64,000 nt of DNA from Mesoterricola silvestris. GTDB lineage: Bacteria; Acidobacteriota; Holophagae; Holophagales; Holophagaceae. Positions 30,249 through 35,225 of the stretch are shown here, piece by piece. Under the pieces are notes generated by a model. The model had not been told where the DNA came from and did not search any database. It saw nothing but the letters and a program-made list of their open reading frames with translations. The position numbers and the translations under genes are program-made. Position 1 is the stretch's first letter; the number at the start of each line of letters is the position of its first letter. The stretch lies in the NCBI RefSeq assembly GCF_030295405.1, contig NZ_AP027080.1, positions 744,001-808,000 of the forward strand, written 5' to 3'.

Positions 30249-31700
30249 ATGCGCTTTCCCCTTTCCGTGGCCCACCTGACGGCCCTCACCGCGTTCCAGC
30301 TGGCCTTCCTGCTGCTCTTCGTGGACCCGCGGCTGGCGGCGGTGCCCCTGGCCCTCTTCGTCCTGCTCTGCGGGGTCGCGCCGTTCATGACCCGGTTCGG
30401 GTTCTTCCTGCCCATCCTCTCCCGGGGCAGCCGCAAGGTGCCCAGGGTGGCCCTGAGCTTCGACGACGGGCCCGACCCCGAGGTCACCCCCGCGGTGCTG
30501 GACCTGCTGGACCGCCACGGCCTGAAGGCCGCGTTCTTCCTGGTGGCCGCCAAGGCCGAGGCGAACCCCGGCCTGGTGCGGGAGATCCTGGCCCGGGGCC
30601 ACGAGATCGGCAGCCACAGCTGGCACCACTTCCCCATGCTCATGCTCCGGAGCCGGCGCGTCCTGCGCGAGGAGGTGGGCCGCGCCCAGGAGATCTTCAA
30701 GGGCTTCGGGATCCTTCCCAGGGCCTTCCGGCCCCCCGTGGGGATCACCAGCTCCCGGCTCTGGCCCGTCCTGCTGGACCACGGCATGTTCTGCGTGAAC
30801 TTCAGCTGCAGGGCCCTGGACCAGGGCAACCGCCGCGTGCCGGGCCTGGCCCGGCGCATCCTGGGCAAGGTCCGGCCAGGGGATCTCATCCTCCTGCACG
30901 ACGTGAGGCCCTCCCGGTCCACCCTGGACCGGCTCCTGGCGGAATTCGAGGAGCTCCTGGGGGGGCTGCGGGAGCGGAACCTGGAGGTGGTGTCCCCCTC
31001 CGCGCTCCTGGGCCGGGCCATCATGGGGCGCCGCCTGGAGGTCCAGGGCGCCGCCGAGAGCTTCTACGACGACCTCGCGGACACCTACGACGAGGAGCAG
31101 TTCGGCACCCCCGTGGCCCTGAGCCGGAACCTGGAGCTGGAGCTCTTCCGCAAGCGCGTCCCCGCCCTCCTCCAGGGCACCGGCACGGTGCTGGAGGTGG
31201 GGGCGGGCACCGGCATCTTCACCCTGGAGCTGGCGCGGCGGTGCGGCGAAGTGCACGCCGTGGACCTCTCCGGGAACATGCTCCGCCACCTGGAGCTCAA
31301 GGCCGGAGCCGCGGGCATCGCCAACATCCGCACCATGGAGGGGGACGCGGAGGCCCTGGACTTCCAGGGCCCCTACGCCGCCGTGTTCTCCTTCCTGGTC
31401 TTCGAGTACTTCCAGGACCTCCCGGGCTTCTTCCGGCGCCTGGCGCCCCACCTGGAACCGGGGGCGCCCGTGTACTTCTTCACCGCCCGCACCTCCTTCC
31501 TGCGGTTCTGGACCCAGCTGGGCAACGCGCTGCGCCAGGGCATCTGGCTCCGGTCCCGCTCCCGCCGGGAGGTGGCCGCGCTCCTGCGGGACGCGGGCAT
31601 CGACCCGGTGCGCATCGAGGGCCACCTGCTCAAGGCCTTCGGCCGGGGGGGAATGATCCTGGAAGTGGAAGGGCGCCGGCGGGGGCCGTCCCGTGGGTGA
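30249..31700 (+). CDS. Polysaccharide deacetylase fused to a SAM methyltransferase
   Basis: 483 residues. Two or three N-terminal membrane helices (about 8-57) precede a NodB domain (SFDDGPDPEVTPAV with Asp72-Asp73; SHSWHH; RPPVGI) that ends near residue 255. A class I methyltransferase follows (LEVGAGTGIFTLELARR, AVDLSGNMLRHLE). The catalytic side of the NodB domain should be at the membrane. The methyltransferase half may be cytoplasmic, which is unusual for a single chain unless both face the cytosol. Divergent from the aryl polyene operon; its 3' end overlaps the GT2 gene. Confidence 0.87.
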   Translation: MRFPLSVAHLTALTAFQLAFLLLFVDPRLAAVPLALFVLLCGVAPFMTRFGFFLPILSRGSRKVPRVALSFDDGPDPEVTPAVLDLLDRHGLKAAFFLVAAKAEANPGLVREILARGHEIGSHSWHHFPMLMLRSRRVLREEVGRAQEIFKGFGILPRAFRPPVGITSSRLWPVLLDHGMFCVNFSCRALDQGNRRVPGLARRILGKVRPGDLILLHDVRPSRSTLDRLLAEFEELLGGLRERNLEVVSPSALLGRAIMGRRLEVQGAAESFYDDLADTYDEEQFGTPVALSRNLELELFRKRVPALLQGTGTVLEVGAGTGIFTLELARRCGEVHAVDLSGNMLRHLELKAGAAGIANIRTMEGDAEALDFQGPYAAVFSFLVFEYFQDLPGFFRRLAPHLEPGAPVYFFTARTSFLRFWTQLGNALRQGIWLRSRSRREVAALLRDAGIDPVRIEGHLLKAFGRGGMILEVEGRRRGPSRG

Positions 31701-33271: not shown

Positions 33272-33455
33272 GGGGACTCCTTGGTGGGTGGGTGACACCA
33301 GTATAGATCGGTGGATGGGTGAGACGTTTAGGGCCTGTTCGGGATCTGTGAGCAGGGATGGCTTGTATCCGATCGGCCCGGAGCATGGGGTTTCCAAGGA
33401 ACGCTCTTTGGCATGGCACGTATGTCGTGCGCCACGAATACCAAGCAGAAAAACC
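33272..33455. other. Non-coding flank of the GxxExxY element
   Basis: No gene is seen. This stretch joins the ankyrin gene's promoter side to the left inverted repeat (33456-33493). No direct target-site duplication is evident when compared with the bases after 34004. Confidence 0.4.
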
Positions 33456-33493
33456 AAACGCTGGGGCGCTGAGGACTCGCTGGGGCGCTGGGG
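33456..33493 (+). repeat. Left arm of 38-bp inverted repeat around GxxExxY gene
   Basis: The arm begins AAACGCTGGGGCGC and ends CTCGCTGGGGCGCTGGGG. It is the reverse complement of 33967-34004 at 36 of 38 positions. It contains the unit CGCTGGGGCGC twice, so the arm is itself partly repetitive. The gene stop codon starts two bases after it. Confidence 0.85.
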
Positions 33494-33494
33494 G

Positions 33495-33914
33495 TCAGGG
33501 TCTGGTGTGAACGACGCGGCGGATTCCGCCATCCTTGAGGGGCCAGGCACGGAAGTTGAGAAGCAGGCCAACCTCGAGACTGGAGAATCGCAGCTGGCTG
33601 TTGATCTGGGCGAAGTGGGCATCCACCAGCTTCTCCACCGTTTTTGCTTCGACCACGACCTTGTCGTCCACCACGAGGTCCATCTTGTAGGCACCATCGA
33701 CGGTCAGGCCCTCCCAGACGATGTCCAGGCAAACCTCCCGCAAGGCTTTGTGGCCACTCCCCCTCAAGGCATGCGCCAAGCAGGCCTTGTAAGCATCCTC
33801 GAGAAGGCCCGGCCCTAGCGCATTCTGAACCCGGATGGCAGCTTCGATTATCGCCTGTGTGATCTCCTGGTGGGGATAATCATCCCCTGAGTGTTCTCCC
33901 CAATAACGTGGCAT
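33495..33914 (-). CDS. GxxExxY protein
   Basis: 139 residues. Contains the family signature GLLEDAY and, downstream, a D...VVVEAK arrangement (MDLVVDDKVVVEAKTVEKL) like a PD-(D/E)xK nuclease core. Start at ATG 33914 with TTGGAGGGG upstream. The family is widespread and of unknown function, with a nuclease-like fold proposed. It lies exactly between the two arms of a 38-bp inverted repeat, suggesting a mobile or repeat-associated cassette; that link is inference. Confidence 0.85.
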   Translation of the reverse strand: MPRYWGEHSGDDYPHQEITQAIIEAAIRVQNALGPGLLEDAYKACLAHALRGSGHKALREVCLDIVWEGLTVDGAYKMDLVVDDKVVVEAKTVEKLVDAHFAQINSQLRFSSLEVGLLLNFRAWPLKDGGIRRVVHTRP

Positions 33915-34195
33915 GGGCCCCTCCAAGAGGACCTGCCCTCACCCCCCCCCAAAGTTCACCTTCTTTCCCCAGCGCCCCAGCGAGCCCTCTGCGCCCCAGC
34001 GTTTATCCTTTTCGATGGTCCTGCCGAATCCCCAAGGCCAGTCCCGTCACCGCTTCAGCCAGACCCCATTTCACGCGATGGCCTCCTGGTCTGCCTAGCT
34101 GCGTGCCTCGTATTCCCGTGCCGAAAATCCCGGTTTACGAGGCATAAGTCATGCGCACAACCTAACTATTCATTCAACCTATTAATTGCCCAACC
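33915..34195. other. Non-coding stretch with the right inverted-repeat arm
   Basis: No convincing gene. It includes the right arm at 33967-34004 and a GC-poorer segment (34140-34195) before the ACP gene. The three overlapping short plus-strand frames here have no ribosome sites. Confidence 0.45.
33967..34004 (-). repeat. Right arm of 38-bp inverted repeat around GxxExxY gene
   Basis: Reverse complement of the left arm with two changes (T to A at arm position 15, A to G at 20). The pair encloses 473 bases with a single gene. Unit length about 549 bp. Confidence 0.85.
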
Positions 34196-34453
34196 CTAAT
34201 TCGTTCCATCCCCAGCCAGCCATCGGGCCAGGGCCCTGACGGTGCCGAGCCGCTCCTGGAACGCGCCGGCCGCTTCCACGGATGCCCCGTAGCGGCGCTT
34301 GAGGGCCATGGCCAGTTCCAGGGCGTCCACCGAATCCAGGCCCAGGCCGCCCCGGAACAGGGGCTGGTCGTCGCCGATGTCTCCGGGCCGGAGGTCCTCC
34401 AGGTCCAGGGTCTCGATGATGAAGGCCTTGAGTTCAAGGGGCGTCGGAGCCAT
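34196..34453 (-). CDS. Acyl carrier protein (fourth in the region)
   Basis: 85 residues, GLGLDSVDALELAMAL with the attachment Ser. It overlaps the PlsC-type gene by 20 bp and is the second gene of that pair. Possibly an outlying part of the aryl polyene or lipid system. Confidence 0.92.
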   Translation of the reverse strand: MAPTPLELKAFIIETLDLEDLRPGDIGDDQPLFRGGLGLDSVDALELAMALKRRYGASVEAAGAFQERLGTVRALARWLAGDGTN

Positions 34454-35225
34454 GGCTCTCCTCGTGGAAACGGCTCTCCAGGAGCCGCGTGAGGGCCCGG
34501 GCCGCCCGGGGGTGCTCCGCGACCGGCGCGGGATCGGCCAGGAGGGGAGCGCCGAATTGGAGCCCGAAGCGGCAGGTGGGCGCCGGAACCATGTACCAGC
34601 GGTCCCCCTTGGCCAGGAGGGGCGGGTCCACGGCGATGCGCACGGGCAGGATCGGGGCCCCGGTCCTCAGGGCCAGGTGGGCCGCCCCCCGCTTGAACCG
34701 GGGGGGCTGCCCGGCGCGGGTCCGTCCGCCCTCCGGGAAGATGACGAGGTTCCGGCCGGCCTCCAGGGCCTGGCCGCAGTGCTCCAGCACCGCCTCGGGC
34801 CCCTGGTTGGAGATGAAGCCCGCGGAGCGCACCAGGGACCCGAAGATGGGGCTGTTCCACACCGCCTCCTTGACCACGCACACCGTGTCCGGCAGGAGGG
34901 CGATGAGGACGACGATATCCAGGTACGAGGGGTGGTTCGCCAGGATGAGCACCCCCTCGGGTCCGGGGGGCCTGCCGTCCACGTCCACCCTGAGGATCCC
35001 GGACACCTCCAGCCCGAACACGAAGCATCGGAAAAAGAGCCGGATGATGCGGGCCGCCCGACGGCGCCTGGCCTCCCTGCCCCCCGGCAGGACCGCCAGG
35101 ACCGGGGGGATGACCAGGGAGCACAGGCAGCCCCCCACCCCCAGGAGGGTGAAGAGGATTCCGCTGGTGAGGACCTTGCCGGCTTGACGGAGGCGCGAGG
35201 GCAGGCGGGAAGGGGTGGCGGCCAT
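34434..35225 (-). CDS. PlsC-type 1-acylglycerol-3-phosphate acyltransferase family protein
   Basis: 263 residues. NHPSYLD (HX4D) and FPEGGRTR motifs of the acyltransferase family, with hydrophobic segments near the N-terminus (GILFTLLGVGGCLCSLVIPPVLAV). It is followed by an ACP gene that overlaps it, implying ACP-bound acyl donors. Two such acyltransferase/ACP combinations occur in aryl polyene loci. Confidence 0.9.
   Translation of the reverse strand: MAATPSRLPSRLRQAGKVLTSGILFTLLGVGGCLCSLVIPPVLAVLPGGREARRRRAARIIRLFFRCFVFGLEVSGILRVDVDGRPPGPEGVLILANHPSYLDIVVLIALLPDTVCVVKEAVWNSPIFGSLVRSAGFISNQGPEAVLEHCGQALEAGRNLVIFPEGGRTRAGQPPRFKRGAAHLALRTGAPILPVRIAVDPPLLAKGDRWYMVPAPTCRFGLQFGAPLLADPAPVAEHPRAARALTRLLESRFHEESHGSDAP

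Follow-up and report, generated by a model that had tools for sequence, protein, structure and literature searches.

In most cases, a gene of the GxxExxY family stands between two mirror-image arrays of a short repeated word, and each copy has a word of its own; we found this arrangement across at least 15 phyla. Arrays of this kind that hold no gene occur almost only in genomes that carry the gene. This pattern suggests a mobile partnership between a gene and its repeats that has apparently not been described before. In the window, by which we mean the whole 64,000-nucleotide stretch of Mesoterricola silvestris DNA analyzed here, one such gene lies in intergenic DNA between protein genes, outside the 16S and 23S rRNA (Table 1).

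An inverted-repeat search of the window recovered two 38-nt arms that are reverse complements at 36 of 38 positions (95%), with 473 nt between them, as the original prediction had described; the next-best inverted repeats in the 2.6 kb around the locus were ~21 to 22 nt long, at 77 to 86%. This pairing is far beyond chance: the genome has the arm sequence at ~42 sites, and almost all of these form inverted pairs. The ORF between the arms is intact and encodes 143 amino acids from a TTG or 139 from an ATG at 33914, the ATG being the more likely start, and its stop codon is indeed two positions from the left arm. Read from the ORFs alone, an acyl-carrier-protein-like ORF overlaps an acyltransferase-like ORF at 34196 to 35225, near a polysaccharide-deacetylase/methyltransferase-like ORF (30249 to 31700) and a glycosyltransferase-like ORF; these may form a lipid or polyene cluster.

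Table 1. Parts of the GxxExxY cassette and of the insertion sequence relic around it, in window coordinates.
Feature	Position	Strand	Evidence
IS5-family relic carrying the cassette	33329..34198	-	Ends align with both ends of the G001 IS5-family element; other copies have homologous flanks; G004 and G005 lack ~860 bp
Terminal inverted repeat at the left end of the relic, TAGGGCCTGTTCGGGATC	33329..33346		Matches G001 IS end TAGGCTGTGTTCGTAATC and the L-end consensus of 16 own-genome copies
Subterminal IS region, downstream arm to left end	33347..33455		Conserved in 16 own-genome copies
Downstream word-array arm, repeating the upstream arm in inverted orientation	33456..33493	-	Inverted-repeat search; arm comparison
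GxxExxY gene, PD-(D/E)XK nuclease family, intact	33495..33926	-	ORF; TIGR04256; PF13366
Upstream word-array arm, gene strand AAACGCTGGGGCGCAGAGGGCTCGCTGGGGCGCTGGGG	33967..34004	-	Inverted-repeat search; arm comparison
Decayed 3' end of IS5-family transposase gene	34047..34110	-	Aligns with R-ends of L032/L044/L048/L052 (ending in TRFDETARSYSAQVAIAWLVVWLKL and a stop, like the G001 transposase C terminus); window sequence interrupted by in-frame stops
Degenerate terminal inverted repeat at the right end of the relic, inward reading TAGGGTTGGGCAATTAAT	34181..34198		Alignment to the G001 IS left end over ~70 bp

Profile searches assigned the ORF to TIGR04256 (GxxExxY; 113.6 bits against a cut-off of 35) and to PF13366 (PDDEXK_3; 111.3 bits against a cut-off of 22). 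The likeness of its D..EAK core to PD-(D/E)xK nucleases, noted in the original prediction, is borne out by residue conservation, the modeled fold, and structural matches. Among 52 aligned homologues, D79, K91, and Q103 were invariant and E89 was present in at least 90%; the window protein has the D..ExK..Q core intact, with Q103 as in Cas4/RecB-type enzymes. The AlphaFold2 model (pLDDT 91.6) gave its best structural matches to Cas4 SSO0001 (4ic1; Z 9.0), BamHI (7.3), and Hjc (6.9). Judging from the catalytic residues and the modeled fold, the protein belongs to the PD-(D/E)XK nuclease superfamily and is a predicted nuclease. It is under purifying selection, with a dN/dS of ~0.17 between the window gene and the copies in G001 and G004. 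A defense or phage gene was rejected, as there was no match to PADLOC defense models at E ≤ 1 and none to PHROGs.

The window copy sits in a larger vehicle. The original prediction had the gene boxed exactly by the arms, in a 549-bp unit that would be present or absent as one block and that had no transposase. The boxing is real and general, but sequence common to other copies extends beyond the arms, from ~33329 to 34198. Many inward-pointing arm pairs of this genome share two different flanks outside the arms, one opening with TAGGGTCTGTTCGG and the other ending, in the better-kept copies, in a reading frame that closes with TRFDETARSYSAQVAIAWLVVWLKL and a stop. A ~1,475-bp element in a sister genome (G001) shows the same layout: an IS5-family transposase gene comes first, followed by one arm, an intact GxxExxY gene, the second arm, and the IS end. 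Given this order, and given that the ends of the G001 element align with window positions 33329 and 34198, the window feature is an IS5-family relic with a decayed transposase tail, and the alignments indicate that the window copy arrived inside an IS5-family element that later lost most of its transposase. Compared with the G001 element, both relic ends have family-typical terminal inverted repeats; no intact DDE transposase gene was found in the relic, only a decayed 3' end with stops. The 870-bp feature is an IS relic and not an active IS, and the absence of a transposase claimed at the outset does not hold for this copy, which keeps recognizable IS ends and a transposase tail.

The relatives agree with these limits. 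The same intergenic spot measures ~100 bp in G004 and G005 and 962 bp in the window, so that both relatives miss ~860 bp instead of 549 bp. A unit ending at the 38-bp arms was therefore rejected, since homology and the empty site extend to 33329-34198. TA is present at both relic ends, compatible with a short target duplication; the site has diverged, and the duplication is not readable. The idea of a cassette that moves as a block survives in part: arm-gene-arm units come and go elsewhere, but here the block is the relic.

Most copies in the window's genome that keep a gene remnant lie between IS5-type ends. In G001, an IS5-family element with GxxExxY or its deletion remnants (e.g., L064-L073 and L096-L102) makes up most of the ~50 GxxExxY matches. 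G004 carries its own GxxExxY copies inside an IS630-family element with an intact transposase; at L084 (2274-4145), this element holds the transposase, a word-array palindrome, and GxxExxY, and it occurs in several copies, mostly >99% identical. Given its presence inside both IS5-type and IS630-family elements, GxxExxY is a repeated passenger of unrelated IS families. Part of the amplification is IS-driven and not array-driven in G001 and G004, and probably so in G057, where many hairpins lie inside a larger repeat and part of the spread is thus not the hairpin's own doing.

Within the window's genome (G000), most arm pairs point inward and enclose 18 to 470 bp. The full gene is found only in the window pair; five units of ~226 bp (L032, L048, L052, L054, and L059) hold an internally deleted GxxExxY gene. 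Nine further pairs face outward, as ~138-bp palindromes with a conserved 64-bp center (L033, L041, L043, L045, L053, L056, L058, L061, and L063), with neither gene nor IS ends. Arms that belong to one element resemble each other slightly more (0.940) than do arms of different elements (0.917), an excess for which common ancestry or conversion could also account. Conversely, four other full GxxExxY genes of this genome are armless, and three of them (L256, L257, and L258) lie without word arrays between the ends CTAGGGGCTGTCGGCAAACC of another IS5-type element, the one at L257 downstream of an IS5-type transposase. Arms without the gene are widespread, and the armless genes tell in part against the link between the two that the original prediction drew; the gene-less arms do not refute this link, because most of those in the window's genome are deletion derivatives or gene-less hairpins of the arm-gene-arm unit. 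A profile search for the Y1 transposase (PF01797) found none in this genome, so there is none to explain the repeats, and ownership of the repeat by a REP/RAYT system was rejected. No TIGR02436 gene was found in the window's genome. A known RNA family was also rejected, as the palindromes gave only sub-threshold chance matches to microRNAs.

Relatives of the same family and the same phylum had a spanning inverted repeat near the gene at most of their GxxExxY loci. We then sampled more widely by scanning one genome per species; the best-scoring 80 of many loci, chosen by two conserved peptide patterns, came from many phyla (at least 15), archaea included, and 77 were usable. A motif-free test aligned the 220 bp upstream of each gene locally with the reverse complement of the 220 bp downstream. 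A spanning inverted repeat scoring at least 34 was found at 49 of 77 GxxExxY loci, with the other 28 below this threshold, compared with 2 of 1,666 control windows, which were positions, not genes, taken from these loci with identical geometry. Each arm is an array of a 7-bp word, CRCnnAG, usually three of them, spaced every 8 to 9 bp and pointing into the cassette from both sides; the window has the variant CGCTGGG/CGCAGAG. At least two inward-pointing words within 120 bp on both sides were present at 52 of 77 genes but in only 8 of 2,633 control windows.

The words are specific to the copy. Similarity at the variable positions was 0.805 between the two arms of one locus and 0.499 when arms were permuted among loci, and none of 5,000 permutations reached the value of 0.805. 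Word similarity also tracked protein similarity (Mantel r, 0.28, uncorrected for common ancestry; reached by 0 of 5,000 permutations). One genome (G051) has six cassettes with six different words, from which it follows that the word belongs to the cassette and not to the genome. When the two arms were compared word by word, matching positions were no more alike than non-matching ones. The arrays are therefore homogeneous as wholes, which fits word recognition better than upkeep of a particular stem; a stem kept by position-specific pairing was rejected on this ground, and the comparison gives no support to selection on arm pairing itself. In the genomes inspected, the word of a cassette is also common to dispersed gene-less hairpins: G051 has tens of short hairpins with CRCCAAG, the word of one of its own cassettes.

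In intergenic DNA, both entire cassettes and gene-less hairpins are gained or lost as blocks. At a junction that we call fadA-fadB, between genes whose products look like a thiolase and its beta-oxidation partner, G051 has an arm-gene-arm cassette; G046, G008, G052, and G041 have a junction of 40 bp; and G018 and G049 have gene-less hairpins with other words. At a second junction, the cassette is present in three species and absent in four. No IS ends were seen around the cassettes at either junction. Across L112, L114, L284, and L276, the fadA-fadB junction holds a cassette or a gene-less hairpin with a different word, depending on the species, so that this junction either is a hot spot or turns over its words fast. 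One gene-less hairpin of G051 is cleanly absent in G041 and G008, with flanks 88 to 91% identical. The three-word array pattern occurred 606 times in 35 relatives that bear the gene and 10 times in 25 that do not (P, ~1e-6, uncorrected for relatedness), and its reverse was almost absent in those relatives. Where the neighboring genes are co-directional, the GxxExxY gene ran in the same direction at 41 of 47 loci (neighbors being the longest ORFs, so that single cases may be wrong). This bias could come from an insertion preference, RNA-level movement, or the purging of antisense insertions.

We are inclined, if only just, to read these observations as a nuclease gene that travels with its own repeats, like REPIN-RAYT but built on another enzyme, in which the nuclease would recognize and move the arrays. 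The comparisons above establish that gene and arrays are associated and that the units are mobile; the part of the nuclease in this is inferred. The GxxExxY nuclease would recognize arrays of its own word, probably in the hairpin that an inverted pair of arrays can form, either in single-stranded DNA or at the level of a transcript. Cutting at the arrays could then lead to the copying or moving of array-bounded units, much as RAYT transposases are thought to act on REPINs. Insertion sequences serve as additional vehicles, and an IS5-family element brought the window copy to its present place.

The main rival to this reading, which we nonetheless consider unlikely, is an RNA-level life as a selfish element similar to an rRNA intervening sequence (IVS). 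In the transcript, the arrays would form a long stem, and its excision or processing by RNase III or by the GxxExxY protein would keep insertions between the genes of an operon harmless; the protein may help the processing or an RNA-level movement step. Folded as RNA, the two window arms form 37 base pairs around a single internal mismatch (-87 kcal/mol), a stem predicted to be strong enough as an RNase III substrate, and the orientation bias would fit, although it may also reflect purged antisense insertions. The IVS of Coxiella 23S rRNA has tandem heptamers before its S23p gene and is excised by RNase III (PMC4990558). Unrelated genes for the S23p four-helix-bundle protein (TIGR02436) are likewise boxed in the relatives: 13 of 23 loci scored at least 34, compared with a maximum of 33 in 347 control windows. 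At L147, L148, L149, L152, L154, L156, L165-L168, and L174, the TIGR02436 genes have inverted arrays of ~7-bp words, the GxxExxY arrays being of 8 to 9 bp. Against an RNA-level life stand the gene-less hairpins that occur as palindromes with their arms facing the other way, the presence of at least one gene-less hairpin downstream of a stop codon, at a junction unlike an operon interior, and the lack of position-by-position covariation between arms.

A purely IS-borne origin, in which GxxExxY is an ordinary passenger, the arms are terminator or regulatory hairpins internal to the IS, and the multicopy arms are its MITEs, would account for the IS5-type ends around the window copy and most gene remnants of its genome, and for the IS5- and IS630-family elements of G001 and G004. 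We think it quite improbable, given that the same boxing recurs in at least 15 phyla, that cassettes occupy operon junctions without IS ends, that two unrelated IS families carry the box, and that the nine palindromes of the window's genome have no IS ends. With tandem repeats next to a gene for a small nuclease, the cassette recalls type III toxin-antitoxin systems in its layout, and the arrays might by extension be regulatory or antidote RNA for a toxic nuclease in an addiction-like unit. Yet the arrays stand on both sides and are inverted, gene-less arrays are common, and no PADLOC model matched, so that such a unit seems very improbable.

If a nuclease that moves its own arrays is the right reading, a family annotated only as "GxxExxY protein" gains both a role and a substrate, and short word repeats that many genomes hold between their genes gain an owner as a class. 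We found no description of the pairing of gene and array in the open-access literature that we searched; subscription papers may describe the repeats, and papers on the Geobacter group report multicopy intergenic repeats of unknown owner. Because the word differs from copy to copy and is written beside the gene, the putative binding site of each nuclease could be read from its own locus, which offers a testable specificity code. More tentatively, and with less confidence, we suggest that GxxExxY genes and their word arrays may form a mobile-element class of their own over most bacteria and reaching the archaea. In such a class, the inverted arrays would present a 7-bp word specific to the copy, and a PD-(D/E)XK nuclease would read this word and mobilize any unit that the arrays bound; IVS elements with S23p four-helix-bundle genes and 7-bp words would be a parallel class on the same plan. 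A nuclease with its own arrays would also join domesticated mobility of the REPIN-RAYT type and rRNA intervening sequences in a single plan, in which inverted word arrays enclose a gene for a small protein.

Several known systems resemble parts of this arrangement. The GxxExxY protein is like Cas4/RecB-like and other PD-(D/E)XK nucleases (SSO0001, Hjc, and BamHI) in its predicted fold and D..ExK..Q residues but has no sequence match to any solved structure that we could find and, as noted, none to a defense model. The window copy, a relic that has IS ends but no transposase, resembles MITEs and IS elements that carry passenger genes, and sister species have IS copies with GxxExxY, whereas the array-gene-array box also stands at junctions without IS ends and spans many phyla. 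The 23S rRNA IVS with its S23p ORF, called selfish, is also a small ORF inside inverted repeats with tandem heptamers and without a transposase (PMC4990558). The GxxExxY cassette, in contrast, lies between protein-coding genes and not in rRNA, encodes an unrelated fold in place of the S23p four-helix bundle, and has dispersed gene-less copies. In REPIN-RAYT (PMC3116915), too, a nuclease-type gene has short cognate repeats on its flanks. The intergenic DNA of such a genome likewise holds many hairpins in which the repeat forms an inverted pair without a gene, and one genome can have several distinct gene-repeat pairs. The differences are that the enzyme here is a PD-(D/E)XK nuclease and not a Y1 (HUH) transposase linked to the repeats, that the repeat is an array of 7-bp words instead of a single REP palindrome, and that whole GxxExxY cassettes come and go and also ride IS elements. 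By this analogy, the GxxExxY system would work like REPIN-RAYT but is not a member of it, having a different enzyme and, in the window's genome, no Y1 transposase.
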